Position numbers and translations under genes: made by a program. 64,000 nucleotides of DNA from Diospyros lotus (lineage: Eukaryota > Streptophyta > Magnoliopsida > Ericales > Ebenaceae): assembly GCF_014633365.1 (NCBI RefSeq), contig NC_068352.1, positions 28,057,310 to 28,121,309 of the forward strand, given 5' to 3'. Below the pieces are notes generated by a model. It was not told where the DNA came from and searched no databases. It saw only the letters and a program-made list of their open reading frames with translations. This document shows, piece after piece, positions 633 through 62,991 of this stretch (positions are counted from its first letter, which is position 1; each line of letters opens with the position of its first letter).

Positions 633-2571
633 TGACTGCACTCCCACCCTGCAATTAAAACACAAAACAAAACACAATAAAAATTTTATATTTTTTTCTT
701 TGTTTAGGTGAGAGGTTTATACTCGTCAGTGTACGAGTGCAGTTGTACTCCAAATTTAAATTTATATTTTCTGAATGAGTCCAGGTCGTCCACTGAGAGA
801 TTTATTTATGGCAAAATAAAAAGAATATCACACAAGCACACACGCATTTGGATAAATTGGTAACAAGGTTTTTTATGGTTTTTTAAACAACAGATACTAG
901 GAAATAAATTAAGGCAGTAATTGAAATAAACACTTTAAGTGAGAATATAAAATTGGATAGTACTTGAGTTAAGACAATTTCAGTGCCAACCCGTTGATTC
1001 CCAAATTTTTGCATAAAAGATTAGCAACATTAATTTAATTTCAGATATGAGGGTTTGTTATTAAATGCAATTAGAGATGATGATAGTTCTAGGTTAAGCA
1101 ATCCCCATACATGATATGCGGGATTCTAATTTAAGCAACCACCATAAATTTAATTGCAATTAATACACAAAACAACTAAATTAATCATCCGGGTTTGGGT
1201 ATGATAGCGTTTCCAGTTCTAGTAACTCTCATACATGGCATGAAAGCTCTAAGTTAGGCTTACGCTCCAATCCAAACCTAGTGATTTCTCAATAATTAAG
1301 ATACACTCATACTGAAATTTAAATTAATGTTACTTATTTAAAGCGCAGCTTTCTTTGGGAATCATTGGCGTTGGACACTGTCCTTGCCTTAACCCAAGAT
1401 TAGATTTAGCTACTCATTTCCATTTAAAAGTTAATTGACATGAATTTAAAAAACGTAATTTAAATAACAGAATTTAAATGACAAGAAATTTTAAAGACAT
1501 AAACTAACCGTCCATTTAGGCGGTGAATAATTAAATGACAAGAATTAAAATTGCAGAAATTTAAAGGCATAAATTAACCGTCCATTTAGGCGGTAAATAA
1601 TAAAGTAATAATAAATGACATAAGAATTTAAAAGAAGAAAGGAAGGAAGTAAGATCACAAGAGAGAATACTAAAGAAAAGGGGAAAGAACAAGAATAATT
1701 CTCAAAGAAAGAATTATAAGGAAACAACTAAACTTTGATTCAAAAATAATAATCACACTTACAAATGCAATCAAGTGATCTATTTATAGGCCACAAGATG
1801 CAATACAAACCACACAATTTCAATTATTCAACTAGACATAATTATATCTAATGGGCACTCACACACTTAAAGTTAAATGGATTTTAGCTATAATACACAC
1901 CTAATATTAAATGGATTTTAGCTAAAATACATACCTAATAAAGCATTCATAAAGTTAAATGGATTTTAGCTATAATATCCACCTAATAGTTAAATGGATT
2001 TTAGCTAAAAAACACACCTAATAAAGCTCTCACATAAAAAATAAAAATATATTTCTATAAATTGGTTTTTAATCTTCATTAGGATTAAGAATAATCCTTG
2101 GGCCTTCTCCAAATAATATCTTCTATGGGTTGCTCAAATTGGGCCTTAATTCTTCATGGGCTTGAATTCTTCATGGACTTTAATTTTTCATGGGCTTAAT
2201 TTCTTCATGGACTTGAATTCTTCATAGGCTTGATTTCTCCATGGGCTTTAAGTCTTCATGGACTTTAAGTCTTCATGGGGTTGAATTCTTCATGCCTAAA
2301 AAAAAATAAAAATAATTTAATGTTATTAATAAATTATATATTATATATATATATTACATGCATGCATATAATGATGTATATGTATTATATATAATTTTAT
2401 ATATTATTATTATTATTATTAAATTTTACTTTAAAATTTCATTTCATTCATTTTTCAATTTAAACTTGCATATAACCATAAAATATATATTAATATCTAA
2501 TTTAAACTATTTTTAAGATCAAAAGAAGGGTATAATTATAACAAAATTTTTATAAAATTAACCACTAATCA
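633..2571 (-). repeat. 3' LTR of element A
   Basis: This 1939-bp LTR begins TGACTGCACTCCC and ends CCACTAATCA on the plus strand. It matches 12173-14085 almost throughout. It holds a minus-strand TATA box (TATTTATA on plus at 1781-1788). It also holds two copies of a roughly 70-bp unit containing ACCGTCCATTTAGGCGGT (about 1508-1600), a 35-bp unit around AAATGGATTTTAGCTA repeated several times (1890-2035), and a minisatellite of TTCATGGGCTTGAATTC-like units (2100-2295). AT microsatellites follow at 2335-2420. Confidence 0.95.
1781..1788 (-). promoter_or_regulatory. LTR TATA box
   Basis: The minus strand reads CCTATAAATAG here. The same site lies at 13321-13328 in the 5' LTR of element A and at 55127-55134 in element B. 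It is the likely start signal for the genomic RNA; the leader then contains the hairpin repeats. Confidence 0.7.
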
Positions 2572-2588
2572 TATCCCCCAACTTAAAC
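2572..2588 (-). other. Polypurine tract of element A
   Basis: The minus strand reads TTTAAGTTGGGGGATA immediately before the 3' LTR. This is the expected position and composition for the plus-strand primer. Similar motifs recur at 4019-4034 and 6195-6215. Confidence 0.85.
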
Positions 2589-4347
2589 ATTGTTAGTCCC
2601 TTAGCAATCAGATTATACACCTGCCAAACTTTATTCACAATAACTGTATGAATGTAAAAATTTCAAATTCGAAACCGAAATGTATAAAATTAAATAAATA
2701 ATTTAGCATTCTAAATCAGATTTTTTGGTTAAAGGTCATACAATCTCAGGAATGGAAATTAGGATAACCAACACACAGACTTACTCCCTCGAAGTTTTGA
2801 CCTCAAATCTTACTATGGATTTTCTCTCCAATAAAAAGGATTCCTCAAGTGTACACACAAGGGGGTGCACCGTTATAAGAGTAAATGCAGAACAAGTTCA
2901 AAACTCGGTGCCATCCCAAATACAAGGAACGTATTTTCATGAAAGAACAGGGAAATTGACATAGCTTCATGATTGGAATAATGCTCTAGACGAGTAACTT
3001 CTGAATTTAGACATGATTCCCTACTCTAAACTCGAATTCTGAGATCACATGATTTATAGCATAAAAAAGGACCAGACTGGGTTGTAATGGGGCTATAAGG
3101 TTAATACGGGTTGTCAAAGAAAAGGTAGAGTGTGCAAAGGGTGTGTCGGGATTTTTTTTTTTTTTTTTTAGCATTTATTTTGAAACAGTTATGCTGAATA
3201 TCTAAGAGAATTTACCCCATTTTTTTCACTTTTTTTTTTCTTCTTTTTTTTTCTCTTTTTTTTTTCTTCTTTTTTTTTCTTTTTCTTTTTAAATATGAAA
3301 ATAGATAAACAGACTAATTCCCAAAATCACACCAGGTTGGATAAAATTCATATGGTTATGGGTTAAACAAGGGTAACGAAAGAAGTTGTACTACAAATGG
3401 CTCAAATGGGCTAACAAGAGGTTGATTTAAAGAAAAAAATAGGCTCAAAATGAAAGAAATTGATCCCCCTATCATGCTTCTCAGTCATCTAATTCATAGT
3501 TTGAAACCAGTCAAATTCATCCGCTATCATACTAGACATTCAAAGCGAATTGATATTTTGAAGCCATTGAAAAGATAAGATAAACAAGAGAGCATATTTA
3601 GAGTAAGTGTTATTTCACTCAGAATTAACGGTTATTAGGCTCAAACACTTGCTTGGGTAATAGTCTCCACTTCTGTTGAGGGATCATACAATGTACTAAT
3701 TAGCTAATTACTGTTACCTTTGACTTTATGACCGATAACCAATTTCTAAATTTTGAATCCCTGATGAATGTAAATTACTTATTCTCATGCATAAACGTTT
3801 TCAAATGAGAAATCAATGCATTCATGTTTCGTATTGCAAACTTAACCGGCTATCAGTGCATAACTTTAAAGCTTTAGGAATAGCATTATTTAAAACACAT
3901 AATAATTTTTTTTTTTTATAAGAGCAGATAAAGATAATCAATTCCCACAAGACTACAAACTAGTAATTACAAACTCACAGTTAAATATAAACCAGATGAT
4001 TCATGACTAGACCTTACACCCCCCAACTTGAATTGCAGTAATAAATCAGGGTTGTTAGGAATACCTGTAACTCCACAAGTCCATAGATTTGCTGTGAACT
4101 GCTAAAACTTAAACAACAAATGAGCACACCATATATATATATATATTTATATTTTCACACCAAAATAAAAATTTCATACAAGTCATAAGATAAGCAAAAT
4201 GCGTCTCAAGAGTACAAAAAGTACTCCTTACTCAACCATCTTAATAAAGAGCATTTCTCACAGTGATAAATCTAAATTAATCGGACCCCTTTGGCGCTTG
4301 TTACTAATTGCCTTAGACCAGTCTATTCGAGGCTCATGAGGATCGTA
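2589..4347 (-). other. 3' non-coding region of element A
   Basis: About 1.75 kb between the LOG frame and the polypurine tract. I see no supportable gene on either strand. It contains T/CT-rich runs at 3150-3295 and 3906-3920 and a polypurine-tract-like motif (AATTCAAGTTGGGGGGTG on minus) at 4018-4034. A short plus-strand frame at 2725-2964 resembles no known protein and is probably chance. Confidence 0.7.
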
Positions 4348-4917
4348 CTATGGAACATAAGCATGTAATTTCTCTAGCAGCTTATCAATGGTGGATGCAG
4401 AAATGAGAATCTTTCTTGCCGAACGAGAAATGAACTGTTGGTCCACAGCCTGATCAAGAAAAGAGAGTAACCCATCGAAAAAATGGTTAACATTTAAAAG
4501 TCTAATAGGTTTGGTATGGAGATTACTCTTGGCCCAGGAGATTATACAAAAGATTTCTTCAAGTGTTCCAAAACCTCCTGGTAAAGCAATGAAGGCATCT
4601 GACTGATAAATCTTACAAGCCATGCGCTCAGACATAGAAGTCGTTTCTATAAGTTGACCGCGTGTAATCCCGGAAATATGTGGTTCAGCTAAAGGGATTG
4701 GCATTATACCTACCACAGATGAATTTCCAAGATGTACAGCTTGTGAAACATAACCATTCAATCCACGACTTCCCCCTCCATATACCAAATTAATTTTTTT
4801 CTCTCCTAATTTTTTACCAAGTTCGCTCGCTGCAAGTGCGTAACAAATATCGCTCCCAAGTTGAGAGCCACAAAGTACACATATGGTATTGATTCGACGA
4901 ACTAACTGGCCTTCCAT
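4348..4917 (-). CDS. LOG: LOG-family cytokinin riboside 5'-monophosphate phosphoribohydrolase inside element A
   Basis: A 189-residue protein of the LOG family. These enzymes release active cytokinin bases from their ribotides in one step, in the cytosol. Visible motifs: a Rossmann start ICVLCGS (12-18), YGGGSRGLNG (46-55), R98 at the place of the catalytic arginine (MSERMACK), the signature PGGFGTLEE (113-121) with glutamate E121, and the family C-terminal region with LLNVNHFFDGLLSFLD (140-155). It is slightly shorter than plant LOGs (about 210-220 residues) but spans the whole domain. The start is an ATG 20 bases after a strong acceptor (CTTCTTTTCAG). Plant LOG genes have several introns; this frame has none, which suggests capture through RNA. 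It lies downstream of the cysteine-rich protein gene on the same strand. Differences from canonical LOG, such as SRGLNG, leave activity unproven. Confidence 0.92.
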   Translation of the reverse strand: MEGQLVRRINTICVLCGSQLGSDICYALAASELGKKLGEKKINLVYGGGSRGLNGYVSQAVHLGNSSVVGIMPIPLAEPHISGITRGQLIETTSMSERMACKIYQSDAFIALPGGFGTLEEIFCIISWAKSNLHTKPIRLLNVNHFFDGLLSFLDQAVDQQFISRSARKILISASTIDKLLEKLHAYVP

Positions 4918-4937
4918 GTTTGTTCCTTTTGTATGTC

Positions 4938-5042
4938 CTGAAAAGAAGTTTGGCGATCAAAAGTAGCTATACAACAATTCAACAAGAAATAAATACAAAC
5001 AAAAATCATGCGTATGTATAAGTAGTTGTGATTGTGGCTCAC
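4938..5042 (-). other. Candidate intron between the cysteine-rich gene and LOG (element A)
   Basis: On the minus strand a donor GAAGAT|GTGAGC (GT at 5042-5041) and a pyrimidine-rich acceptor CTTCTTTTCAG|GAC (AG at 4939-4938) bound 105 bases. The same sites are in element B at 63523-63627. Use of this intron is inferred only from consensus. Confidence 0.45.
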
Positions 5043-5084
5043 ATCTTCCTCTGGTTTTACGTCCAGAAACGACTTAAACACTTT

Positions 5085-5573
5085 CTATGAAGCGGGGATA
5101 AGCTTCCCATCCAATTTTCTTATAGATTGGCAAACAGGGTCGTTTTTAGTCAGATTCCCAAGACTATAGCGTTGGTGGTCACTTCTGAACTGGGTCCATA
5201 AAGCAAGAAGTTCTCTTTGCACTATTCCACATGGATGTGTCTCAAGAGTCAATCGGATATCATCCAGAGACTCCTTACTCAGTCCATCCTTTATGAAACT
5301 AATTTTATCTTCTCGATTTATGGACGTAAACCCCACAGATTTGCATCGTGTGTTACAGGTCCATCGAGCACATTTGTAACAACCATTCACTCTTTTCGCT
5401 CTTCTTTTCTTCGCAAAACTACTCTTTCCTAAGCCTGGAAAATGCTTAAAACTAGGTGAAGTTTCACCAGCTAATCGAACTTTTGCTTCGATCAGCCAAC
5501 GAATATCTTCAGGAATGTTATTAAGCATCAACAACCTAAGTCTTTCACACCTTGCAACATAAATTTTTTTCAA
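5085..5573 (-). CDS. Carlavirus-like cysteine-rich nucleic-acid-binding protein inside element A
   Basis: An open frame of 162 codons. Its centre resembles the small cysteine-rich nucleic-acid-binding proteins of carlaviruses (Carla_C4 family), which in those plant RNA viruses bind nucleic acid and affect host silencing and gene expression. What is seen: GLGKSSFAKKRRAKR at 47-61, a basic, nuclear-signal-like stretch, followed at once by cysteines 65, 68, 73 and 77 (CYKC then CNTRC), a plausible zinc finger, then FIKDGL at 93-98. The first codon of the open stretch is TTG; the first in-frame ATG is codon 16 (5528-5526), so the true protein may be about 147 residues. The part after residue 100 matches nothing I know. 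It sits between pol and LOG on the same strand. The B copy differs at one residue near the C-terminus. The family assignment is by motif reading, not by search. Confidence 0.75.
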   Translation of the reverse strand: MKKIYVARCERLRLLMLNNIPEDIRWLIEAKVRLAGETSPSFKHFPGLGKSSFAKKRRAKRVNGCYKCARWTCNTRCKSVGFTSINREDKISFIKDGLSKESLDDIRLTLETHPCGIVQRELLALWTQFRSDHQRYSLGNLTKNDPVCQSIRKLDGKLIPAS

Positions 5574-5579
5574 ATCATT

Positions 5580-5699
5580 CTGCGGGAGAGATGGATAGTA
5601 CTTATGAATTTTTTAGAGATAAAGATCTATTTTTTTTTTTTTTAACTATACTAAGAAGAAAGTAAAGAACTATAAACTTTACAAAAGGGATGAGAGTAC
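5580..5699 (-). other. Candidate 5'-leader intron of the accessory genes (element A)
   Basis: On the minus strand the donor is GATCAG|GTACTC (GT at 5699-5698) and the acceptor CTCTCCCGCAG|AATG (AG at 5581-5580), 120 bases apart with a T/A-rich interior. Both sites are kept in element B (62864-62985). Confidence 0.45.
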
Positions 5700-5752
5700 C
5701 TGATCGGAGAATAACACAAAGGAGAGAAGACTGAGCTCAAAAAGGGTGGCTT

Positions 5753-5783
5753 GCCTTATACAGATATGGAGTCTCTTATAGAG
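5753..5783 (-). promoter_or_regulatory. Candidate internal promoter of the accessory genes (element A)
   Basis: Two TATA-like motifs lie on the minus strand: CTATAAGAG (near 5775-5781) and TGTATAAGGC (near 5754-5763). They are followed by a pyrimidine-rich stretch and then the candidate leader intron. The arrangement resembles a plant or plant-virus polymerase II core promoter. The function is inferred. Confidence 0.4.
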
Positions 5784-6535
5784 CAATAACCATCACTATT
5801 TTACACTCGGCTCGAGGCATACCATAATTACAGGGTCAGGCTTGGCGTCTCTTTTTCAACGCTTGGTGCCTCATTTTTCAACATTTGGCAGTGTGCCTTA
5901 TCCTTTATAGGGCAGTGTGATTGCACTGCCCAAGAAAAGATAGCTACCACCAGCGTCAATTTTGTCTCTCTCAATTCAATTTTTTTTTTATTATTATTTT
6001 ATTGTTTTTTTTTAATTTTTTTATTCTTATTCTTATTATTATTATTAATTTTTTTTTTGATTTTTTTTTTTAATAAATGTTTTGTTTTAGGGGCCCAATA
6101 AAATCATACATACCACACAAAACAATATTATCGAGTCTAACAAAATTATTTGCACAATGGATCAGTTTCAAATACCAATAAAATCAAGTACACCTTATCC
6201 CCGAACTTAAATTGCGCATTGTCCTCAATCGACAATAAAAGGATAGAAGATAGGCATACTTGGTGGTCTTCAATGCATGAACTCGTATGCAAAAAAATTT
6301 TATTTAGACTGCACACAGAGAAACACTATTTGAATCAAAGTTAATTAAGTAATGCAGAAAATGAACAACTTATATATATAATTCTTTATTATTTTATTTT
6401 ATTTTTATTTTATTTTATTTTTTTCTTTTTTTATTTAATTTTTTTATTTTTTTTTTCAGATCTATAAACATCCATTTAACCTAAATGGAAAGGTGGTCTT
6501 TTAACGTCAGATTCCCAGACGATAGGAAACTTTCC
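5784..6535 (-). other. Spacer between pol and the accessory genes (element A)
   Basis: Non-coding. It has long T-rich runs on plus (5975-6080 and 6380-6460), and a polypurine-like motif AATTTAAGTTCGGGGATAA (minus) at 6195-6215. Just after the pol stop is an inverted repeat around CCATTTAACCTAAATGG (6471-6487). The stretch near 5810-5960 is moderately GC-rich and may belong to the accessory promoter. No protein frame is supported. Confidence 0.6.
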
Positions 6536-9500
6536 CTACTCATCAGATGATGATGGATCATCCAAATCCACAACTCCTTCATTCTCCTCAACACTACCCT
6601 GGTATGGTTTCAACCTATGACCATTGACTGTTAGAAGTTGTCCTGACTCCGGATTTTCTATCTCAAATGCCCCATATCCTGAGATGGACTTGATTACAAA
6701 GGGGCCGACCCATCGAGACTTCAATTTTCCTGGGAATAGATGCAATCGAGAATCATACAAGAGTACCCGTTGCCCTACCTGAAAGCTTTTTCGAATGATG
6801 TGCCGATCATGTAACTCTTTCATGCGAACCTTGGCCAATCGTGCATTTTCAAATGCTTCATTCCGAATTTCCTCAAGTTCATTCAATTGGAGCTTCCTGG
6901 ATAAGCCTGCTTCAGTTAGACTCTTGTTGATCTTATGAATTGCCCAATATGCTTTATGCTCAATTTCCACCGGTAGATGACAAGATTTACCGTATACTAG
7001 CCTATAGGGAGACATTCCCAAAATTGTTTTGTAAGCTGTCCTGTACGCCCAAAGAGCGTCTACTAGTCTTAAGGACCAATCCTTACGATTAGCAGCAACA
7101 GTCTTTTCCAATATGCGCTTAATCTCCCTATTGGCTAGCTCGGCTTGACCATTGGTTTGGGGATGGTATGGTGTTGCAACCTTATGCAGTACACCATATT
7201 TCTTCATTAATCCTGCCACAACTTTATTACAAAAATGGGAACCCCCATCACTGATGATTGCTCGTGGCATCCCAAATCGACTGAAAATGTTTTCTTTCAA
7301 AAATTTCACGACAGTCCTATGGTCATTTGTTCTGGCCGGGATTGCTTCTACCCATTTGGACACATAGTCAACAGCAAGTAAGATATATTCATGACCAAAT
7401 GAATTGACAAATGGGCCCATAAAATCCATACCCCAACAATCAAAAACTTCTAACACTTGGATCGGATGTAATGGCATCATGTTTCTCCTTGACAGACTTC
7501 CTAACCTTTGACATCGATCGCCATTTGAACAGAACTTGTACACATCCTTGAACAGTGTCGGCCAATAAAATCCACTCTGAAAAATTTTTGCAACTGTTTT
7601 CTTGACAGAAAAATGGCCTCCACATGCAAGAGTATGACTGAAATTGATGACACTTTGTTGCTCATGATCGGGTATGCATCTACGGATGATTTGGTCAGGA
7701 CAATACTTGAAGAGGTAGGGCTCATCCCAAAAGAAGGTTCTGACTTTTCTGAAGAATTTATGCCTATCTTGCTTACTCCAATGGTCTGGGATCAGACCAG
7801 TTGCCAGGTAGTTCACAATGTCGGCATACCAAGGGACAACAGATGATGCACGAATAACATTCACTTTAAACAGTTGCTCATCAGGGAAATTGTCATGAAT
7901 TGGTTCATCAAATTGTGTGAGATCTTGACTTGGAATCCTTGACAAATGGTCAGCCACCACATTTTCTACTCCCTTCTTGTCTCTGATTTCAATGTTGAAC
8001 TCTTGCAGGAGTGAGATCCATCGGAGCAGACAGGGTTTTGCATCTTGCTTTGTGAACAAATACTTCAGAGTAGCGTGATCAGTAAAAATGATCACTAGTG
8101 ACCCTACGAGGTAAGATCGAAACTTGTCCAGGGAAAAGACAACTGCTAGTAACTCTTTCTCTGTAGTGGTGTAATTATTTTGTGCCTCATTAAGAGTTTT
8201 GCTAGCATAATATATCACATGAGGTTTCTTATCCTTCCTCTGCCCTAACACAGCTCCTACCGCGTAATCACTAGCATCGCACATAAGTTCAAATGGGAGG
8301 GACCAATCAGGGGACTGAATGATAGGTGCTGAAATGAGTGCATCTTTCAATTTATCAAAAGCATTTTGACAGGCAGGACTCCATTCAAACGGAACATCTT
8401 GAGACAACAAATGGCACAAGGGTCTTGTTATGGTGCTAAAGGAAGCAATGAATCTCCTATAAAACCCTGCATGTCCCAAAAAACTTCTGATGTCTTTCAC
8501 ATTCCTAGGGATGGGGAGTTTTTGAATTGTTTCAATTTTTGACCTGTCTACCTCCATCCCCCTAGATGAAACGATGTGCCCCAAGACTATGCCCTGTTTC
8601 ACCATGAAGTGACATTTTTCCCAATTGAGTATCAGATTTGTTTCCTCACATCTTGCTAAAACCTTTTTCAGATTCTCCAAACAGGCCTCAAAGTTATTTC
8701 CATAAACAGAAAAGTCATCCATAAATACTTCAACAATCTGCTCAACCATTTCACTGAAAATGCTCATCATACACCTTTGAAAGGTGGCTGGAGCATTGCA
8801 TAACCCAAATAACATGCGCCTGTATGCAAATGTCCCAAATGGATATGTGAAAGTTGTCTTCTCTTGATCTTCTAGTGCAATTTCTATCTGATTGTACCCT
8901 GAGTAGCCATCTAAGAAACAATAGTAGGCTTGGCCTGCTATTCTCTCCAGAACTTGATCCAAGAAAGGCAAAGGAAAATGATCTTTCCTTGTCACAGAAT
9001 TGAGCTTTCTATAATCAATGCACATACGCCATCCTGTCTGGATGCGCGTGGGAATCAGTTCATTGTTCTCATTTTTTACAATAGTGACTCCAGACTTTTT
9101 GGGTACTACTTGTGTTGGACTTACCCACTTAGAATCAGAGATTGGGTAAATTATTTCAGCATCCAATAGCTTAAGCACTTCTTTTCTGACAACTTCTTTC
9201 ATGTTGGGATTTAATCTCCTTTGCATTTGCCTAACTGGTTTTGCTCCTTCTTCCAAGAATATCTTATGAGTACAGATCAAAGGGCTAATACCTTGCAAAT
9301 CTGAAATGGTCCATCCTAATGACTTCCTGTGTGCTTTTAGAACTTCTATCAGTTGTTGCTCTTACTGAGGTGTCAAACTTGAAGAGATCACCACTGGGAA
9401 TGCTTCCCCTTCTCCTAGAAAGATATACTTCAAATCACTGGGCAATGGCTTTCTCTCAGACGTGGACTGATGGCTATCAGGAGCCATGAGCTTACTGTCC

Positions 9501-12043
9501 AAGTTCCTTAATGGCTCTAAACCAGGCATCCATGTAGGCTTCTCACTTTCTTTGCTTATGACTTCCACTTCTTTTATTTCTTCGAGATCTTGATTTCCTT
9601 CTTTGGGTCTTCTCATGAACTCTTCAAAACAGTCATTGGTCAGTGTTTGGATCAAGTCTACCTCCTCCACTTCACTCTCAGTGTCCTGATGTTTGGCTAC
9701 CCTGAAGATATTCATTTCTACAGTCATGTTCCCAAAAGATAGCTTTAACACACCATTGCTACAGTTAATGATGGCATTTGATGTGGCAAGGAATGGTCGA
9801 CCTAAGATGACTGGCACAGGAGGTTGAGGCCCCTGATGCGGCTAGGTGTCCAAAACGATGAAGTCCACTGGAAAGTAGAACTTATCGATTTGAACCAGAA
9901 CATCCTCCACAATTCCTCGTGGAACTTTGACTGATCGATCAGCCAGCTGAAGGGTTACTCTAGTGGGTTTAAGCTCACCTAATCCCAACTGTTAATACAC
10001 ACTGTATGGCAACAAATTGACACTAGCTCCTAAATCCAAGAGTGCCCAATCAACCTTTTGACTTCCTATGATGCATGTAATGGTTGGACAGCCTGGATCT
10101 TTGTATTTGGGAGGAGTTTTCAATTGGAGAATGGCGCTGACTTGTTCAGTCAAGAATGCCTTTTCATGCACATTTGTTTTCCTTTTGACAGTGCACAGAT
10201 CTTTCAAAAACTTTGCATATGAAGGTATTTGTTTGATTGCATCCAACAGCGGGATGTTGATTCTCACTTGCTTAAACATTTCATATATATCTGTATTTTG
10301 TTGCTCTTTTTTCAAATGATTCAACCTTTGTGGAAAAGGTGATTTGGGCCTGTATTGAATTTCTTTCTCATCTTCTTTTTGTTTTTCATTTTTCTCATTT
10401 TTTTCATTTTTCTCATTTTTCTCATTTTTTTCATTTTTTTCCACGGTGGATTCATGATCTTTTGGTTCTTTTTCTTCATCAACATGTTAGTTTATCCTAG
10501 GATCAGTTGGTTTCTCAATTATTCTTCCACTTCTTAGGGCAGTCACTACTTGCACTTGTTCATGAGTGTTGGTTTCACTATTTGAAGCTTCTACCTGGTT
10601 GGTTTGCCTAATTGGGTTAGGATTAGTTTGGGATGGAAACCTCCCGGGTTCTCTCACACTCAATGTTTGTGTTATCTTGGTCAACTGGCTCCTAATGTCT
10701 TCTATGACTCTGTTTGTTTGGTCTTGATTTTTGACAAGCTGAGCAACCTGATTATTGATACCTGTTTGACTTTGGATGAACTGGTGCAAGGTATCTTCCA
10801 AAGATCTCCTATGAGGAGGTTGGTAAGTATTGGATGAAGAACCTTGATTTTGTTGGAAGGTATGTTGTTGTGTAGGGAAGGGAGGTTGAGAATGATTTCC
10901 AGAATCATTTCTCCAAGAAAAATTGGGGTGATTTCTATTATTGGGATGGTATGAATTGTAGTTCTGATTTTTTCCATAATAGGCTCCACTCTGATTTTGA
11001 TTTTGTCTCCCCTCAAAGTTGTGTGAATGATTGTTATTAGTCTGCCCATACAATACCTCCTTGAAAGCAGGTAGGGTAGGACATTCTTCAGTTGAATGAT
11101 CTGTTGCATCACACACAACACACTTTACTTCCACTTGATTAACAGATTGCACCTTTTTAGGTTACATATTTTCAACTTTCTTTGTTAAAGCAGTTAGTCT
11201 TGCATTTAAATCGTCACTCTCACTCAGTTGGTATCTCCCTCTAGGTTGTGGATTTTCTCTTGAATCAAGAGCAGATGTTGGACTAACTTCCCAGTTCCTT
11301 GTATTCTCAGCCAATGTGTCAAAGAAGTGGAAAGTTTCTTCTGGAGTCTTCTCATAGAATTCTCCATTGCACATTGTAGAAACTAGCATTTTCAATTGGG
11401 GAGTGAGTGAATCATGAAAGAAACTGACCACTCTCCATTGCTCAAAAGCATGGTGCGGACAAGTGTGAAGAAGGTCTTTAAACCTTTCCCACGCTTGCGC
11501 AAAATTCTCATTTGGTTTACAGGCAAAGTTCATGATTTGTCTTTGAAGAGTAGCAGTTCTGTTGGCAGGGAAGTATTTTTTTAAGAAAGTTGTTTGCATT
11601 TCTCTCCAAGTTCCTATAGATCTAGGTGGGAGAGTGCTTAACCATATTTTTGCCTTATCTTTCAGTGAGAATGGAAAGAGTTTTAATCTTATGACATCCT
11701 CATTTGCTGTATGGTCCATGCAAATGCTACATACTTCCTCAAATTCTTTCATAAGAGTATATGGATTTTCAGAATCCATGCCATGAAAAGTTGGCAACAC
11801 TTGGATTGTGCCAGGTTTGAAGTTAAACCTATGATGATTGATGGGAAGAATAATGCATGAGGGGGTTGTCTGCCTAGGAGGATGAAGATACTCCCTAAGG
11901 GGTCTGATCATCTCCTGATCAATGGGATCAGGGTCACCGTGGTCACTACCACGTGCAAACATGTTCTGTGGAAGTGGCATGTTCTCATTGTGTTGAGACA
12001 TGAGTGACTGATTTTCTACAGTTTTACCTGACCTAAGTAACAT
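6536..12043 (-). pseudogene. Athila-type gag-pol polyprotein of element A, five premature stops
   Basis: One continuous frame of 1836 codons without frameshifts, starting at ATG 12043 (MLLRSGK). In order: gag matrix/capsid region (FHGMDSENPYT, then LFPFSLKDKAKIW), a zinc knuckle CX2CX4HX4C (CVVCDATDHSTEEC), a lysine/glutamate repeat of NEK units, aspartic protease (LLDLGASVNLLP), reverse transcriptase (VFMDDFSVY), RNase H ([13 protein letters not shown]), integrase zinc finger and DDE core ([19 protein letters not shown], and [16 protein letters not shown] with its glutamate). Stops lie at 11162-11164, 10487-10489, 9992-9994, 9842-9844 and 9362-9364. All five look like C-to-T changes in CAA or CAG codons. 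The integrase zinc finger has lost one cysteine (CSNGDRC here, CSNCNRC in B), and RMPFGL has become RMLFGL in the reverse transcriptase. The product cannot be made whole from this copy. Confidence 0.95.
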
Positions 12044-12149
12044 ACACTATGCACAAATAAAAATAAAGTAAAAAGAAACAGAGTTACCGAATTTATCAGG
12101 AGATGCTTCTTCTTATATTTTTTTTTTCCTTTTTGTTTTTGCCTCAATC

Positions 12150-12172
12150 TCCCCGGCAACGACGCTAAAATT
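12150..12172 (-). other. Primer binding site of element A (tRNA-Asp type, mutated)
   Basis: Directly after the 5' LTR the minus strand reads TTTTAGCGTCGTTGCCGGGG. The B copy keeps TGGCGCCGTTGCCGGGGA, the primer site matching plant tRNA-Asp that is usual in Athila elements. Here two G-to-A or C-to-T changes have weakened it. The leader 12044-12150 has no gene. Confidence 0.85.
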
Positions 12173-14085
12173 TGACTGCACTCCCACCCTGCAATTAAAA
12201 CACAAAACAAAACACAATAAAAATTTTATATTTTTTTCTTTGTTTAGGTGAGAGGTTTATACTCGTCAGTGTACGAGTGCAGTTGTAGTTCAAATTTAAA
12301 TTTATATTTTTTGAATGAGTCTAGGTCGTCCACTGAGAGATTTATTTATGGAAAAATAAAAAGAATGTCACACAAGCACACACGCATTTAGATAAATTGG
12401 CAACAAGGTTTTTTATGGTTTTTTAAACAACAGATATTAGGAAATAAATTAAGGCAGTAATTGAAATAAATACTTTAAGTGAGAATATAAAATTGGATAG
12501 TACTTGAGTTAAGACAATTTCAGTGTCAACCCGTTGATTCCCAAATTTTTGCATAAAAGATTAGCAACATTAATTTAATTTCAGATATGAGGGTTTGTTA
12601 TTAAATGCAATTAGAGATGATGATAGTTCTAGGTTAAGCAATCCCCATACATGATATGCGGGATTCTAATTTAAGCAACCACCATAAATTCAATTGCAAT
12701 TAATACACAAAACAACTAAATTAATCATCTGGGTTTGGGTATGATAGCGTTTCCAGTTCTAGTAACTCTCATACATGGCATGAAAGCTCTAAATTAGGCT
12801 TACGCTCCAATCTAAACCTAGTGATTTCTCAATAATTAAGATACACTCATACTGAAATTTAAATTAATGTTACTTATTTAAAGCGCAGCTTTCTTTGGGA
12901 ATCATTGGCGTTGGACACTGTCCTTGCCTTAACCCAAGATTAGATTTAGCTACTCATTTCCATTTAAAAGTTAATTGACATGAATTTAAAAAACGTAATT
13001 TAAATAACAGAATTTAAATGATAAGAAATTTTAAAGACATAAACTAACCGTCCATTTAGGCGGTGAATAATTAAATGACAAGAATTAAAATTGCAGAAAT
13101 TTAAAGGCACAAATTAACCGGCCATTTAGGCGGTGAATAATAAAGTAATAATAAATGACATAAGAATTTAAAAGAAGAAAGGAATGAAGTAAGATCACAA
13201 GAGAGAATACTAAAGAAAAGGGGAAAGAACAAGAACAATTCTCAAAGAAAGAATTATAAGGAAACAACTAAACTTTGATTCAAAAATAATAATCACACTT
13301 ACAAATGCAATCAAGTGATCTATTTATAGGCCACAAGATGCAATACAAACCACACAATTTCAATTATTCAACTAGACATAATTATATCTAATGGGCACTC
13401 ACACACTTAAAGTTAAATGGATTTTAGCTATAATACACACCTAATATTAAATGGATTTTAGCTAAAATACATACCTAATAAAGCATTCATAAAGTTAAAT
13501 GGATTTTAGCTATAATATCCACCTAATAGTTAAATGGATTTTAGCTAAAAAACACACCTAATAAAGCTCTCACATAAAAAATAAAAATAGATTTCTATAA
13601 ATTAGTTTTTAATCTTCATTAGGATTAAAAATAATCCTTGGGCCTTCTCCAAATAATATCTTCCATGGGTTGCTCAAATTGGGCCTTAATTTTTCATGGG
13701 CTTGAATTCTTCATGTACTTGAATTCTTCATGGGCTTGATTTCTCCATGGGCTTTAAGTCTTCATGGACTTTAAGTCTTCATGGGCTTGAATTCTTCATG
13801 CCTAAAAAAAAATAAAAATAATTTAATGTTATTAATAAATTACATATTATATATATATATATTACATGCATGCATATAATGATGTATATGTATTATATAT
13901 AATTTTATATATTATTATTATTATTATTATTATTAAATTTTACTTTAAAATTTCATTTCATTCATTTTTCAATTTAAACTTGCATATAACCATAAAATAT
14001 ATATTAATATCTAATTTAAACTATTTTTAAGATCAAAAGAATGGTATAATTATAACAAATTTTTTATAAAATTAACCACTAATCA
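12173..14085 (-). repeat. 5' LTR of element A
   Basis: This 1913-bp LTR is the partner of 633-2571 with the same TG and CA ends. Differences are scattered single bases, a shorter TTCATGG minisatellite (13680-13800) and a longer ATT run (13912-13935). TATA box on minus at 13321-13328; the hairpin-bearing repeat is at about 13046-13140. Confidence 0.95.
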
Positions 14086-14090
14086 GCTAC
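14086..14090. repeat. Target site duplication of element A, right copy (GCTAC)
   Basis: Identical to 628-632. The MULE reading frame continues across it. Confidence 0.95.
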
Positions 14091-18824: not shown

Positions 18825-21800
18825 TCAACTGGAAGAGTTCAATTTGCTCAACTGCACAAACAACATCGCCAGAGCCCCGGACTTGAAAATGGTCGGCAAA
18901 GGAATCCCATATTTCCCTCTACTAAACAGGCCTTTCAAGAACGCCCAAAAAATTAGCACTACACACACACTACAAACAACTTCCCCTATCCCGAATCCAT
19001 CTTCACCGGGGTTAGGGTGGAACCCTAGCAATCCGATGGCCAGGGCTGCTAGGTTTATCAGCAAGATGGTGGTGCCGGGGATGAAGATAGGGGAGTCGTT
19101 GAATGTGAACCTCCCGGCGTTGGCATCAGTGTTGTCGTCGGCAGCGAGCTGGTCTTTCTGGGTGACTTCGAAAATGGTGTCTGATATTCCGAGGAGCTTA
19201 AGGACTACGCTCAAGGCTCCGAAGAACCAGGCGTTCATGGCGACAATCTTCCACATTCTCTGGTTGTTCCACCATGCGCGGATTGAGAGTCCAGTTCGCA
19301 GATACTCAGATAAAGTGTAGAAGTTGTAGATGAGGAAGACGAAAATGATTGTCAAAAAGCCTGATTCTCCCATCTACATTACGAGAAAACATGCATAACT
19401 TATAGTGATAGAAATTTTGATATCTCTTCTTAAAGAAGCTACTTTATTAGAGTTTACTCTTACGGATCATTTAAAAATAGATGCTAGAATGGACCAATTG
19501 ATGAGATTGATCACTATGCAATGATCAATGATCATGGACCCACATCTCATTAAAAGCAATTGTCAATGGTAACATAACATTCGTAATTATAAATTAGTTT
19601 AATAATTTTAATTCAATATACAAATATTAAACTTTTTTACATAATTTATATCCAATGAAACTACGTTTAAAACTTTTTCTAGGCTGACCTTGGGCAAGAA
19701 CTGAGTATCAGCGATGATACAGTAGGCCGGCAAAGCAGCGTAACATAGCTCGGGAATGGACCGAATGGGCCAAAAAATGACGTATAAGTAGGCCAACCCT
19801 TGCCGGAACTGGAGCCTCCCTTTGAGCATAAGGATGGGTGGGCTTTTTGGGCCGAGCAGAACTTCAAGCAATCCAGTGGCCCACCTCTTATGCTGGATCA
19901 TGGCTGCAGGCCCACCAGATGGTGCACAGCCCAAGAATGCTGGCGGGTCGGGTGTGCAGTGGGTGGATCTCCAACCTCTCCCTAGAATGGAAAGCCCGGT
20001 ATGCACGTCTTCTGTTGTAGATCCGTACATCCATCCAACCTTTTGAACGACACAAAGTTTAGAAAAACTTAATAAATTATTCAGAATAAAGTAAATGACC
20101 TCAAAATGGCAACGGGCTGCTTTCTTGGGATATATTTAAGGTTCTATTCGGTGAGGAAGCTCTCACCTCACTGCCCCATTTGGTGCCATACTCATAGCCA
20201 CAGCCAGCAACAGTGTGAGCTGCATCCATGCAACTCGACAAATCCCCTTCCGATGAATCGCCAATCATCAGCCCTGACAGTGTCTCCGCAGCTGATGTGG
20301 TGAACTCTATTGAGCTCCCATAAACGCTCTTCAATGCCTCAATGTTGCGCAGCTTTCCTATCACCGAGGGCACAGGCAAATTATTAAAAAAAAATACTGT
20401 GGTTGAGATTTAACTTTTTTTTGTTTGAATTAAATATATAAATTTAATTTGATAATTATTTTTATTTATAACTGCACTGATTAAGAAACTGGAATAGAGC
20501 GTTTCTCACCGTTGATTTGCTTGTCATCTGGTGATAATCCATAAATGATTTTTCTCCTGTGAAAGCAGTTTGTTCCTTGATAAAAAGGTCCTTGAATTCC
20601 CACTATTCCATACCCCACGTACTGAAACAAGACATTTCCAGTGAATACTAGAACTGTTTTAATTAATAGTTTATTCTAAGTTTTCATTCATTGCAGTTTG
20701 AAAATATGTCGCATACGTCTCATACTTTAAAAATAATAAGTCTATATCTACTGTTCAAGGATTCAATAATTTATTTCTTGTCGTTATGTTTACTTTACCG
20801 TAGGATATCTTTGACATTTTATAATAAATTTATATGAAACCCCTGTCATTTGGCTAACAAAAGGAAGATTAATGCAATATAATTTCAACTTAGAGATACA
20901 TATTTAAGAAAATTTTAGGGATGTTGAGGCTAACTTTCTTTGAAAAAATTACTTAAAATGTATTTTAAAAAGACGCAAACCTTCAACAAAACCTCCAATT
21001 GATTTCCAAATGGGTCGTCCTTCAATCCACCATAGAAGCCTTGAGGAGACTGAACATAGCCACAATCCCTCTCATTCTTGATGCCCATAAAGAAACACAT
21101 GGCGTGAAGAATAATTTGAGAGTTATTAACATACATGTCAGAGTCTAGATTCAGCATGATTGGAGCATTCGTCATCACTCCCGAAACTCTTGTCTGTTAA
21201 TATCATAGTACAAACAATAATATTAGATTAACAATTAACTAAGAAAAGAAACAAAAAAAACCTTTAGATGTTTTTTAATTTCATAAAAAAGTTGACCAAC
21301 ATTCATAAAGAGAAGAAAAAAACAACCTTATTAAGTGACTTATTTTCATAAAAATGAGACTTTTCCATACGTTGGTGATGCTTTTTTTTGATTTATTTAT
21401 AAAGAAGTATTATTAAGTAGACATATATAAATATGGGTTTACAATGCAAATAATTAATATGGAATACAAATCGAAGTTCTTACAAGCACATTCATGGCAC
21501 CAGCTTTGAAATTATGTGAGTGATGAGGGCGTTTTTCTCTGGAAATGTAGATAAGATGTGGCATTGATCCATCTTTTGAAGGATGATCCTTGTTCTCCCA
21601 TATAACCTAATTAATTAAAAGACTTTGAATTAATCAAGTAATTAGCAAGAAAAATATTTTATTGGTTGATTAGATAGAGGCTGCCTTTACCCTTTAGTGG
21701 GGGTACGCACGTAAAGAGAGTAAGATGTCTGTTGGCGACAACATAAATGGACTAAAGGTTCAATGAAATCATTCAGTGTTTTTGCGACTTATATATAATT

Positions 21801-22796
21801 GGTTAGATAGATCGATCATAGATTGATTTGTGGCCAACAAGGTATGGTGAAATACCTTAACTATGGAAGGGTGATTTCCACGTTGTATGTTTGAGAAATC
21901 CTTGAAGTCGCCAACGAGCTCACAAGGAAGAGGCCTTCTGGATGCATCTTCAATGATCTGGCAAAGATGCTCATACTCGCACTGCAAATTAAGACAACAG
22001 AGCGAGAGAGAGAGAGAGAGAGTGGCTTTAGTTAGATTATTATGATGCTTCAAATGACATCATAATAAACTTATATAAATTAATTAACCCACCTGGATCT
22101 TCTTCCTTTCTTGCAGGAACTCTGGCGAAGCATCCTGAGAAGACGAGGACTGACTGGAAAAGTACCGGAAGGGTGCCCGGAGCTGTATGCCGTGCTTCTT
22201 GCAGAAAGGAACCCAGAGCCTGGCAAACTTTGAGGCTTCAACCAGCGAGTAGAAGGTGAGAGGAGAGCCGCCGTCGTCGGAGACGTAGCAGGCCAGCTTA
22301 TGGGGCGGGTAGTCGACGGCCAACAAGGAGAGCACGGTGTTCACAGTGAGGATTGGCGGCTCCAAGACTGGATCAGTTGTTGTCACAAACATGTCCACCG
22401 GAGGGAGCTCCACTTTCCTATCCAATCTACGATCCAAAACCACAACCAAACACACAGTTAGAAAAAGTCTTCTGTGGATAAGATTCCTCACTTCGGTATA
22501 AACTGGAACTTGAGAATTGGGCACGTGCACGTATACCTTTGCAAGAGGCGGTGAGGGTAAGTTTTGAACTCCACTTGGTTCCACTTGGTGCTGACAACAA
22601 GAACCCACACGAAAGTGAACCATGACTCGCAGAGAAAGGCCAGGAGCCAGGCGAATGCTTGGATTCTGGGAGAGAGGAGGCGATGGAGCAGGAGAGAGAG
22701 GAGGAGGAAGAGGATGGCAAGTTCAATGGCTCGAGAAACGTAGTTTCTGCGGGTGAATCTTTGGTAGAGAGGGAGAGTGCTGGAGGGGTTGGCCAT
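18825..22796 (-). CDS. CSLH: Cellulose synthase-like protein, CSLH/CSLB group, nine exons, intact
   Basis: A family 2 glycosyltransferase that makes a beta-glucan backbone in the endomembrane system. Grass CSLH makes mixed-linkage glucan; the eudicot product is less clear. Exons on minus: 22796-22537, 22426-22093, 21981-21856, 21606-21484, 21193-20981, 20621-20510, 20357-20167, 20039-19689, 19373-18825. All introns are GT-AG and phases agree, giving 752 residues, normal for the group. Two N-terminal membrane segments (about 22-40 and 46-68) precede the catalytic loop: DDG 137-139, DSD 298-300 (usually DCD), TED 462-464, QHKRW 502-506. A multi-span C-terminal membrane region follows. The start is supported by [14 protein letters not shown] and good ATG context. 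CSLB is the alternative name. No stops or frameshifts were seen; it looks functional. Confidence 0.93.
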
Positions 22797-50293: not shown

Positions 50294-53200
50294 ATGACGT
50301 CTGTCTCTCTGAATGTGGGAAATTTCATTACCCTCAAACTCACTCAAATCAATCCTTTATGGCGTGAACAAGCATTGGCTTTAGCAGAAAGTTAAGATCT
50401 AGTTGAGAATCTTACCACAGCAGATTCAGCTCCTGTCAAATATACCACTCCAACTTCAAACACAGATGTAGATAATTTTGTGCCAACATTGACAGATTCG
50501 TTCAAAGCTTGGCACAAATCTGATCGTCTTCTTCGTGGATGGATCATTGGTACACTCTTAGAAGAAGCTCTTGGACTTGTTGTTGGCTTAGAAACAACAT
50601 ACTCAATATGGGAAGCTCTAAAAAATTCATATGCACAAGATTCACAAGAGCGAGAATTTACACTACGGCAACAAGTGACATATCTTCGTAAAGATGAAGA
50701 TAAAACCATTGCTGAACATATTCGCACATTTAAAAGTTTGTACGATAATCTTGCAGCCATAGGAAAACCTGTTTTTGACAAAGAAAAGGTATTCTACCTT
50801 CTTACTAGTCTTGGTTGTGACACCCGTAATCTTAAGAGCATGATTAACAATAATAATATCCATATGAAATTCAAAGTTTAGCGCAGACGAAAACTTGAGA
50901 AACAAAACTTTAATAAACTTAAGTAAAGTTTTGAACATAATAAGATTCAGAGTATTTTTCGTGTAAATATAAAGTTTGATACTGAAAACATGGCTTCAAT
51001 AGAAGAGAGAAGGACTTAGCAAACATCATAGCATCCATACCGAGAAAACCGGACTTAAAATGAGACTTGGCTTTGTTCATAAACTTATATAAGGTTTAAG
51101 AACATATGGTGTAGCAATAGTGTACATCTATCATAAGAGTGTAATATTGAAAATCTTTCTAATACAAGAAGAGAGAAACATCATTTTGACTATTAAAATT
51201 TATCTTCAAATAGCCACTAGATTTACATAAATCCTTTTTAAAGGAGCCACCATGTTCCACGTCCTTTCTCCAGTCTCCTCATTCATAATCACCTGGGGGG
51301 AAAAATATGGGATGAGATTCTTGCGAGTCTCAGTAAGTACAAGAGAACTATCATATGTATTTAAACAAGTTATGACATAACATAACATATCATATGGAGA
51401 CACTAGAGGTTCTACCAACTACGGGGGCATGAACCCTCGTGCGTAGCGCTACCGAGCTCCGGTCCCGAAACTTGCGTGAACATAACATAACATGAGGGAC
51501 CACATAACATAATTCATGGTCATGCTTAAACAACATAAATAGTTCATAATGTACTTACCTCAACTTGGTTGGACAAGATTTGAATGTTTAAGGCTTCACA
51601 CCTTACTAGGTTTGTATTTCTGTAGACAAAACGCATATTTTAGTGAACTAAAACTTATGTAATATTATATTGGATTGTAGGTAATCAAATAAGGGGTTCA
51701 CATGTGAAATATAATGGAAAAAGGGGCCTCCACGCGCCCTCACGCGCCCCAAGAAGAGGTGGCGCCTATTTTCGCGTCTTGGGGGCAGATTTGACCCCCT
51801 TTAGTATTTTTGCCATATCTTTCTCATTTTAACTCCGAATCGACTTCCGTTTGAACCTACAAACTCCTATTTCAGTCCTCTACATGATTATGGGAAGAAA
51901 TCATACTTACCTCTCCGATTGGAAGACTTTTATGGCAGATCTTTGCGGCTGTCCACTTTCCAATCAAGTCTCTTTTTCCTTTCTTCTTTGCTTTTTTCTT
52001 TGTTCTTTCCTTGCACTTGCTTTCTTTCCTCTTTTCTTAGCTTCTCGTGGCCTTAATTCCTTCCCTTTAAATAGCCTTTAAATTCCCAAATCCTCAAGAT
52101 TTTACTTGGCCTCCAAGTTGCTCATTTTCCATCCTAGTAATTATTACAACTTTGAATTTTCTTCAATCTTCCAATGCAAGCTTCTTCTTCTTCCAATCCT
52201 AGGTCACCAAATATACCTTCAAGATAAGCTTTATCATCTTCTTCCCTTGCAAGCTAAATCATATCCAATCCTAACCTTCCAACTTTAGACTTTTAGGATA
52301 AAGACTGATCATTACAAACTTTGAATATTTCTTTCTTTGATTTTAGCTTCCCATACAAGCTTCTATTCTCTTCCAATCCAAACTCTCACGTGGCCTCCAA
52401 GATGAGTCTCTACTTCTTTTGTAAGCCAATACAATTCTTACAATTTAAGTCTTCCAAGTCAAGTCTTCCAAGTTAAGCCATTCCAAGACTTTTGTGTAGA
52501 ATTCATCATTACAAAGACTTTAGGGTAAAGTTCATCATTACAACTTCCAAGCTAAGTCATTCTAAGGCTTCTAGTGTAAGCCAATCTCTTTCTTCCAAGG
52601 TAAGCCATTCTAAGAATTTTGGGGCAAAGTTAATTATTACAATTTCCAAAATAAGCCACCTTAAGACTTTAATTGAAATCCGGCCAATAGATTTGTGCCA
52701 CGTCATCGTTGATCTTATCCTTAAACACCCAATAGGATGCTTCCACCTCACAAGGACACTTGGAGAGTGTTCATTGGCTAATCCTTGATATTTTTGGTTG
52801 ATATTTTGGCTAGTTTACCAACATTACACTTGTGCCCAAGTTTTTCCAAGAATTTCGCTTTTTCCCGGACTTAGTATTTACAGTTTTGCCACTACTAAGT
52901 TTTTGTCTTAGGATTTTCGTAACCACTTGAAAGTGTCTCATTTCATCATATATCTGAACTTAAATATCCTTGGTATATATCACAATTGAAAGTTCTTGGA
53001 TATTACATATTTGAACCGAGAAAGGAAATAAACAAAATCTCGGGTGTTACATCGGTCCTCAGTATGAGACTTTTACTGTTGCAATGATGAAGCCAACTTA
53101 CATTGAGTTAGTGTCTCAACTGCAAAGTTTGGACCAATGACGAAGCTGGTTTTCTGGTAATACAGATACCATAACTAGGCATTTCTCTTCTCAACTAGCA

Positions 53201-54301
53201 TTCTATGGTCAACATTAGCGCCATCAACAACAATCATTCACAGGGTATCGTGGTAACTCACAACAATTCACATCAACTGGGCGTGGCTTTCAAGCTCAAC
53301 AACCCAGAAATAAAAACAGAGACTACTCGGATAATTTAGTATCCAACACAAAGCAACGTCGTCCTCCACCTCCTGGTGAACATAGCATGACTCCTGCTGA
53401 AAGATACTTATATTGTGAAGAAAGGTGTCAATATTGTGGTACAATGGGTCATATTGCAAAAATTTGCCGGTGGTTACCTAAGAAGTCTACTCAGAATGAA
53501 GAAATCCCTCAAGCTCTTGCAGCTCTTACCTTGGACAACACTATTTTAGATACAGAGTGGACATCTGACACTGGAGCCTTTAATCACATGACAGGTAATC
53601 CAGGTATGTTGTTTAATATTCACAAATATTTGGGATCTGATTCAGTACTTATTGGAGGTGGATCTTCTTTTCCTATTGCTGGAATTAGTGACACAAATAT
53701 AAAACAAAATGCAACCAATTTATCTCTTCAAAATGTGATGTTAGTTCCAGCCTTGACTAAGAATTTGTTGTCTGTGAGCCAATTAACTTCTCAATTTCCA
53801 GTAAATTGTGAATTTTCTGATGTTGATTTTTGTGTTAAGGAACGGGGAATAGGACAAACAGTGATAAAAGGGAGACGCAAGGGTGATCTCTATGTTCTCT
53901 CCAACTCACCAAAATTGCATTTTCCTTATCGCTTCAAATCTTGTTCAATAGAAGTTTAGCATCAACGTTTAGGATATCCACAGTTTTTGGCTTTACAATT
54001 ATTAAAAAATAAGGGATTAATTTAAGTTGTAGGAGCTACTAAACTTGAGCATATTTGTGATAGTTGTCAGTTAGGAAAGCTCAGTAGATTACCTTTCTCT
54101 TGTTCTGAACATTCAAGCACTGCTATTTTTGACAAAATTCATTGTGATTTGTGGGGTCCTGCTCTAGTTTTATCTATTGGAAAATTCAAATATTATGTTT
54201 GTTTAGTAGGTGATTTTTCTAAATATACTTGGATTATTCCTCTACAACATAAATCTGACTTTGTTGATGCATATTTTATTTTTGAAAAATACGTGGCAAG
54301 G
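50294..54301 (+). pseudogene. Ty1/copia gag-pol, split by a solo LTR and truncated by element B
   Basis: The gag frame starts MTSVSLNVGNF at 50294, has a stop at 50393-50395 (a CAA-to-TAA type change), then reads a UBN2-type gag (SIWEALKNSYAQ, VFYLLTSLG). A solo LTR interrupts at 50816-53051, exactly between TSLG and PQYETFTVAMMKP. Then follow a zinc knuckle (CQYCGTMGHIAKIC), protease (WTSDTGAFNHMTG), the integrase HHCC region (HQRLGYPQ, CDSCQLGK) and the first part of the integrase core (IHCDLWGP, VGDFSKYTWI). Further stops lie near 53140, 53216, 53957 and 54024. Element B cuts it at 54301, so reverse transcriptase and RNase H are missing here and may lie beyond the window. The lineage looks Ale-like. 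Confidence 0.9.
50816..53051 (-). mobile_element. Solo LTR 5 inside copia gag, 2236 bp
   Basis: Starts TGTGACACCCGTAATC and ends CTCGGGTGTTACA. The flanks TTGGT (50811-50815) and TCGGT (53052-53056) are a target duplication with one change, and the gag frame reads across when the LTR is left out. Probable orientation minus (TGTAACACCCG start; TATA-like CTATTTAAAGG on minus near 52062-52072). Repeated AAGCCATTCTAAG/TTCCAAG-like phrases lie at 52440-52680. The region has no gene. Confidence 0.85.
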
Positions 54302-56353: not shown

Positions 56354-56358
56354 AATTT

Positions 56359-56376
56359 TGGCGCCGTTGCCGGGGA
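56359..56376 (+). other. Primer binding site of element B (tRNA-Asp)
   Basis: TGGCGCCGTTGCCGGGGA, five bases after the LTR end. It is complementary to the 3' end of plant tRNA-Asp, as is usual for Athila elements. The leader 56377-56489 holds no gene. Confidence 0.9.
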
Positions 56377-56489
56377 GATTGAGGCAAAAACAAAAAGGAA
56401 AAAAATATATATATATATAAGAAGAAGCATCTCCTGATAAATTCGGTAACTCTGTTTCTTTTTACTTTATTTTTATTTGTGCATAGTGT

Positions 56490-62810: not shown

Positions 62811-62863
62811 AAGCCACCCTTCTTGAGCTCAGTCTTCTCTCCTTTGTGTTATTCTCCGATCAG

Positions 62864-62985: not shown

Positions 62986-62991
62986 AATGAT

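Follow-up and report, generated by a model that had tools for sequence, protein, structure and literature searches.

A predicted viral-type nucleic-acid-binding protein gene beside a LONELY GUY gene in an Athila-type retrotransposon of Diospyros lotus

What a small cysteine-rich protein resembling those of plant RNA viruses is doing inside a plant retrotransposon is the question raised by an open reading frame at 5085-5573 on the minus strand of the window, the whole 64,000-nt stretch of Diospyros lotus DNA analyzed here. An earlier note had described a frame of 162 codons, present in two copies and carrying the basic stretch GKSSFAKKRRAKR, a four-cysteine cluster and FIKDGL, all of which was borne out, with the second copy located at 62992-63480 on the plus strand. 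The basic, NLS-like stretch lies at 5391-5429 and the cluster, CX2CX4CX3C, at 5343-5381, both on the minus strand, placing KKRRAKR beside the cysteines in the central part of the protein. In a 129-row alignment, conservation is at least 90% for KKRRAK and for all four cysteines individually, the last Arg of KKRRAKR being the exception. The frame itself stood, but its length as a measure of gene size did not. The 162 codons of copy 1 are counted from a TTG, the start codon is lost in both window copies, and copy 1 additionally has an early stop; a full-length equivalent of copy 1 would extend to 5630. In 24 of 28 copies compared from the same genome the frame opens with an ATG and encodes 181 aa, a share that is flattered by the sampling, as the 28 are the two window copies plus 26 drawn from the 150 best-scoring ones. 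The window frame is the surviving part of a longer gene, whose product we refer to as the nucleic-acid-binding protein (NABP).

The host of copy 1 is element 1 (633-14085, minus strand), a complete Ty3/gypsy LTR retrotransposon with an LTR pair, TG..CA ends and a 5 bp target duplication read by eye (GCTAC at 628-632 and 14086-14090). Self-alignment placed the 5′ LTR at 12173-14085 and the 3′ LTR at 633-2571, with 96.1% identity between them, and 17-bp tandem repeats were observed in both, at about 2140-2371 and 13663-13877. The gag gene is found at 11162-12043 (Pfam Retrotrans_gag, 2.6e-20) and pol, with reverse transcriptase, RNase H and integrase, at 6536-9298 (Pfam RVT_1, RT_RNaseH, Integrase_H2C2 and rve), all on the minus strand; the gag-region frame holds a C-X2-C-X4-H-X4-C knuckle recognized by eye. 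A purine-rich tract, also found by eye, precedes the 3′ LTR in the sense direction (~2572-2584, minus strand), and a putative primer binding site core, GCGTCGTTGCCGGGG, lies a few bp inside the LTR at 12151-12165 on the same strand. At up to 2 mismatches this core occurs twice in the window, once per element, where none would be expected by chance. Its letters are probably of the tRNA-Asp type, the window having no tRNA gene for comparison. Element 2 (54299-64000, plus strand), identified by alignment to element 1 and cut by the window end, begins with a 5′ LTR at about 54299-56353 and is 97.4% identical to element 1 across 8,666 alignment columns.

The LTR pair, the target duplication and gag-pol in gypsy order identify a Ty3/gypsy element and do not single out Athila. 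The Athila-type label, also given in the earlier note and in agreement with the domains, LTRs and ends found here, is a prediction from size, LTR length, primer-site offset and layout. The offset agrees with that of Calypso and Diaspora, members of the Athila lineage whose primer site starts 5 bp inside and pairs with tRNA-Asp, according to the available part of PMC1142308. An env-like gene after pol is usual in the lineage and not defining, Diaspora lacking one. No env-like gene was found in element 1, where the only frames of at least 80 aa on the element's strand between pol and the 3′ LTR are NABP and a LONELY GUY (LOG) gene. In size, in LTR length, in a primer site set a few bp into the LTR and in the room after pol, the element resembles Athila, Calypso and Diaspora as far as PMC1142308 describes them; it differs in that NABP and LOG replace the env-like gene. 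NABP, in sense orientation between pol and the 3′ LTR, occupies the place of the env-like gene of other lineage members.

The viral resemblance was examined with Pfam profiles. The window frame matches Viral_NABP (PF05515) at E 1.4e-8 (35.4 bits vs. a cut-off of 23) over residues 20-100 and Carla_C4 (PF01623) at E 4.3e-5 (23.8 bits vs. a cut-off of 20.9) over residues 42-77, and no further Pfam family matches with an E of 1 or lower. In an alignment of 26 members that contains the window frame, 25 match Carla_C4 and 24 match Viral_NABP at a threshold of E 0.1. Eight control sequences (three full shuffles, four shuffles with Cys, Lys and Arg kept in place, and one reversed) gave no match at or above a Pfam cut-off. 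One of the four Cys/Lys/Arg-fixed shuffles did produce sub-threshold matches to Carla_C4 (0.0085) and Viral_NABP (0.073), which means that composition accounts for some of the Carla_C4 score. The earlier note had staked its claim on such a search, and the outcome seen is a Carla_C4 match above cut-off instead of no match and a better one to a plant zinc-finger family. A plant zinc-finger origin was also considered and rejected, with no such family appearing at E up to 1.

Against the sequences of solved structures NABP gave a single match (E 0.89). A first AlphaFold model built from 26 rows was too poor (pLDDT 57.4), and a second model from 129 rows (pLDDT 69.7, pTM 0.36) was used for structure searches. 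Foldseek found no match to this model in the PDB and 35 matches in BFVD at E up to 10, with 28 of the 35 being named flexivirus proteins, mostly labelled nucleic-acid-binding protein or RNA silencing suppressor. Four of the first 32 are unnamed, and the last three are two unnamed proteins and one from a phage. E-values reach 2e-3 at best, none being 0.001 or below, and TM-scores are low at 0.36 or less by query length. The top two matches belong to a grapevine virus and to Cherry mottle leaf virus, and carlaviruses are among the rest; we take the genera to be viti-, carla-, tricho-, prune-, mandari- and allexivirus. We read the BFVD result as an argument for homology to the viral proteins and not as proof of fold.

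Judged by these profile matches, the NABP frame is a predicted member of the flexivirus nucleic-acid-binding/silencing-suppressor family (Viral_NABP). The earlier description of it as carlavirus-like holds in its kinship with flexivirus NABPs, but the genus is too narrow, as Viral_NABP scores better than Carla_C4 and the zinc spacing differs. Vitivirus proteins have a short zinc spacing of the CX2CX4CX3C kind. Carlavirus spacings are given, in the portions of the sources available, as CX2CX12CX4C (PMC9559581) and CX2CX9CX4C (PMC3689765), and the spacing here is neither. The carlavirus cysteine-rich protein (CRP) is also the product of a 3′-proximal gene beside the coat protein gene of a plus-strand RNA virus, whereas this frame lies in an LTR retrotransposon, and NABP is not a carlavirus protein proper. 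What it shares with flexivirus NABPs and CRPs are the profile matches over cut-off, a basic stretch immediately ahead of four clustered cysteines, small size and a gene located in the 3′ region, where the viruses also have theirs. It differs from flexivirus NABPs in being encoded by an LTR retrotransposon, in its CX2CX4CX3C spacing, and in conserved regions at both termini that lie beyond the profile match (residues 20-100 of 162).

A protein search with NABP returned 519 homologues with E-values no higher than 0.01; the best 120 are listed and are 58-92% identical. Named sources include the eudicots Populus, Xanthoceras, Acer, Orobanche and Rhamnella, with Parasponia and Striga added by a profile of the 63-residue core. 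The listed homologues are mostly 181-182 aa long, and those that were read have about 20 extra N-terminal residues compared with the window frame. Two Orobanche gene models have NABP and LOG domains in one protein, and a Rhamnella model has, by eye, an integrase-like end joined to NABP. No virus is among the names of the best 120 of 572 proteins passing the core profile search, and a search of a viral sequence collection gave 61 pattern matches, none of them a relative. Labels other than plant among those 120 are one bacterial record, one ‘ribosomal protein L37E’ and ‘hypothetical protein’; the Clostridioides difficile entry (P0185) that matches the core is probably contamination.

A contig filed under a ‘Candidatus Nomurabacteria’ MAG, DAIEQH010000041.1 (L029), looks like plant retrotransposon DNA, and we infer that it is likely a binning contaminant of plant origin. 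On L029 an integrase is followed by NABP, which is 71% identical to homologue P0003 and 75% identical to the window frame. Ten LOG queries run against the 983 bp that follow NABP on L029 gave no recognizable LOG, the best match having E 0.032 over 13 residues. NABP can thus occur without an adjacent LOG, and the pair may not be universal. Longest-contig sizes common to NABP and LOG hits (8,723, 2,128 and 4,511) suggest that NABP and LOG share contigs in other plants, though we did not count this as evidence.

The earlier inventory of the element had the NABP frame right and missed the gene adjoining it. In element 1 this is an intronless LOG at 4348-4917 on the minus strand (Pfam Lysine_decarbox, 8.8e-33), which stops at codon 190 with its tail encoded past the stop, at about 4258-4347. 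The LOG of element 2 (63648-64000, plus strand) is broken at codon 8 and cut by the window end. In all 28 copies examined (two window and 26 fetched) the LOG start lies 167 nt downstream of the NABP stop, and LOG is full length at 219 aa in 17 of them, both window copies being broken. The closest solved relatives are Arabidopsis At2g37210 and At5g11950, and the window LOG carries the PGGxGTxxE motif, as do 84 of the 90 other members of its group. Domain and motif predict a protein of the cytokinin riboside 5′-monophosphate phosphoribohydrolase type, a cytokinin-activating enzyme whose gene was apparently captured from a plant.

The LOG search gave 6,088 matches, of which the best 120 (P0243-P0362) were listed; four were dropped by length, leaving 117 rows together with the window LOG. 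In a quick tree, built with no bootstrap, the window LOG groups with 90 other rows, separately from 20 ordinary plant LOGs and 6 Xanthoceras LOGs, with SH-aLRT values of 99 and 100 for the split, also when the tail is removed. The group is defined by this tree, and few of its 90 members outside the window were placed in elements by their surroundings. A C-terminal LxLxL end occurs in 71 of these 90 and in none of the 20 ordinary plant LOGs or the 6 Xanthoceras LOGs, although the Xanthoceras tails do finish with a basic run. Three or more Lys/Arg immediately ahead of this end, counted separately, are likewise found in 71 of 90, and shuffled LOG tails contain LxLxL in 0.9% of cases. We take LxLxL to be a co-repressor motif of the EAR type. 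Three Populus proteins named LOGL10 by their source (P0272, P0275 and P0289) fall in the element-type clade and may be transposon genes.

Steinbauerova et al. are said to have reported a LOG-type gene in Ty3/gypsy elements. The available part of PMC9289625 cites these authors for the YgdH domain in gypsy elements, and itself describes this LOG-type domain in the consensus sequences of gypsy elements from Populus and from two Citrus species. Those elements are like the present one in having a LOG-type gene inside a gypsy element, and Populus LOGs fall in the clade of the window LOG; in contrast, that part of PMC9289625 describes neither a viral-type gene next to LOG nor a LOG tail with basic residues and LxLxL.

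To place the family in its genome we searched 630 Mb in 43 contigs, which gave 953 first-look NABP candidates. The 150 that were scored are 98-100% identical over the query, and 145 of these have no stops. LTR pairs were obtained for four of ten sampled copies, with identities of 99.95%, 99.9%, 98.9% (an overlapping second piece being 100%) and 100%, and target duplications could be read by eye at the flanks of copies with LTR pairs. One of the remaining copies had a partial LTR match (88% over 985 nt), and five had none in the stretches fetched. The element family is recently active and present at high copy number.

Constraint on both genes was assessed by comparing their variants with the mutation spectrum of a noncoding spacer, which shows 281 variants over 393 columns in 28 copies, the counts treating shared ancestry of variants only by a single/shared split. 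NABP has 26 synonymous and 15 non-synonymous variants within the family (omega 0.18, p 1e-7), a value that is biased downwards, the copies having been listed according to their NABP score. LOG has 51 synonymous and 48 non-synonymous variants (omega 0.31, p 8e-9) in 23 of the 28 copies, five having been dropped for indels or truncation. Own-genome NABP compared with that of L029 gives an NG86 dN/dS of 0.25 with a dS of 0.93, and amino acid identity is 73% for NABP vs. 66% for the integrase part of window copy 1, where dS is saturated. Both NABP and LOG show signs of protein-level constraint. In the same comparison, synonymous sites are saturated in the integrase part of pol (6536-9298) but not in NABP, hinting at nucleotide-level constraint or at separate exchange of NABP between elements.

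The viral relatives of the protein suppress silencing and also influence how the host develops. In the parts of the sources available, SPCFV NaBP and CVB p12 are silencing suppressors, CVB p12 being also a transcription factor that induces hyperplasia (PMC12172455), PVH CRP suppressed local silencing (PMC3689765), and a Grapevine virus A protein is a silencing suppressor (PMC4472227). By analogy with these proteins the anti-silencing role that the earlier note suggested for NABP is a reasonable proposal, and we infer that its most likely function is that of a nuclear silencing suppressor or transcription factor. Splice-acceptor-like sites, found by a simple pyrimidine count, lie upstream of NABP in the own genome and in L029, and for this reason we propose that the protein would be made perhaps from a spliced sense RNA. 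It could then enter the nucleus by means of its basic stretch, use its basic and zinc motifs to bind nucleic acid, and blunt host silencing and/or reprogramme host transcription as its viral relatives do. In the same cells, LOG with its basic and LxLxL tail might raise active cytokinin and/or recruit the TOPLESS co-repressor, and the two proteins would jointly favour a proliferative, less silenced cell state from which new copies could reach the germ line. We lean towards this reading, in which a recently active element carries NABP as an accessory gene with a silencing or transcription factor role, paired with a LOG cytokinin/co-repressor module. Extending it to eudicot Athila-type elements in general, as carriers of a two-gene host-manipulation module of NABP and a TOPLESS-recruiting nuclear LOG from which the flexivirus suppressor possibly derives, is a proposal we make tentatively and with considerable doubt.

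Several other explanations were weighed against the accessory role. The resemblance to viral NABPs could be convergent, a basic stretch and a cysteine cluster having arisen independently; the sub-threshold matches of one in four Cys/Lys/Arg-fixed shuffles, a zinc spacing unlike that of carlaviruses and the modest structure scores are in keeping with this, but the Viral_NABP match at 1.4e-8 spans residues 20-100, including part of the protein before the basic stretch, and the structure matches almost solely one viral group with none in the PDB, which makes convergence very unlikely in our view. Equally, the frame could be a captured fragment with no function that is passively carried, as might be suggested by both window copies being broken at the start and by the 11 of 28 copies having no full-length LOG. 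Such a fragment would hardly be expected to have 519 homologues with E-values of at most 0.01 (the best 120 listed being 58-92% identical), an omega well below 1 both within the family and against L029, or 24 of 28 copies at full length, even in a sample biased that way, nor to be more conserved against L029 (73%) than is the integrase portion of the first window copy (66%), and we regard passive carriage as most improbable. Somewhat more weight, short of making it likely, goes to a NABP of the viral family that serves replication of the element, as a nucleocapsid-like RNA chaperone or nuclear export factor, with suppression incidental or absent. The basic stretch and zinc cluster suit RNA binding, NABP is on the genomic sense strand after pol, and L029 retains it without a recognizable LOG nearby. 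The gag-region frame, however, already has a knuckle of its own, Diaspora of the same lineage lives without a gene after pol (PMC1142308, as far as available), and the viral relatives are pathogenicity and silencing factors.

The direction of transfer is a separate matter. The earlier note proposed that the element acquired the gene from a plant RNA virus or that both drew on a common source. Compatibly with the accessory role, the element protein may be ancestral, with flexiviruses having taken their suppressor from retrotransposons, or a lost plant gene may have been the source of both; we consider this possible, though less likely than not. The abundance of NABP in plant elements speaks for it, as does the patchy occurrence of the gene in viral genera (Vitivirus, Carlavirus and some Trichovirus, in the accessible part of PMC4472227). 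Capture of viral RNA by a retrotransposon is, on the other hand, documented in another system. A 2009 report by Geuking reportedly describes such a capture.

We found no report of a viral-type NABP gene in LTR elements in the literature searched, in which subscription journals are thinly covered. PMC7264820 mentions none of lonely guy, lysine decarboxylase, carlavirus or cytokinin, and PMC11963269 none of lonely guy, lysine decarboxylase, carlavirus, zinc finger or silencing suppressor. LOG in gypsy elements is already known, and the viral-type gene beside it is apparently unreported in the literature searched. A betaflexivirus replicase-like sequence in cucumber is described as the only confirmed plus-strand RNA virus sequence in the portion of PMC3136472 available; it is similar in being flexivirus-type sequence in a plant nuclear genome but, going by that portion, is a replicase-region relic of one species, whereas NABP is a conserved gene of a transposon family. 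The m6A demethylase domain of orchid Ty3/gypsy elements (PMC9289625, in part) is likewise an accessory gene gained by gypsy elements, but a different gene in different plants. If the reading we favour is true, plant LTR retrotransposons carry a gene of the kind that serves plant RNA viruses as a silencing suppressor, and this genome has at least 150 near-identical copies of it. NABP would then offer a direct test of how some element families escape silencing, and raises the question of gene trade between viruses and retroelements. Some annotated plant LOG genes, Populus LOGL10 for example, may moreover be transposon genes, which matters for accounts of cytokinin gene families.

Directly after the UAG stop of NABP lies a conserved in-frame stretch, FKxFLDVKPEEDVSHNHNY, at 5022-5084 on the minus strand and at 2348-2410 of L029. 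Nucleotide identity between an own-genome copy and L029 is 88.9% in this stretch vs. 72.9% in NABP, and identical codons are used at 15 of 17 shared residues vs. 84 of 130 in NABP (Fisher p 0.057). In two homologues, P0070 and P0083, the NABP frame continues through the stretch as a fusion. Stop-codon readthrough or an RNA signal is a possible explanation for this conservation. Elsewhere in the window, three cellulose synthase (PF03552) matches at 18825-22623 on the minus strand look like a split cellulose-synthase-like gene, and copia-type gag and Pol_BBD pieces at 50480-53959 on the plus strand are probably the remains of a copia element near element 2.
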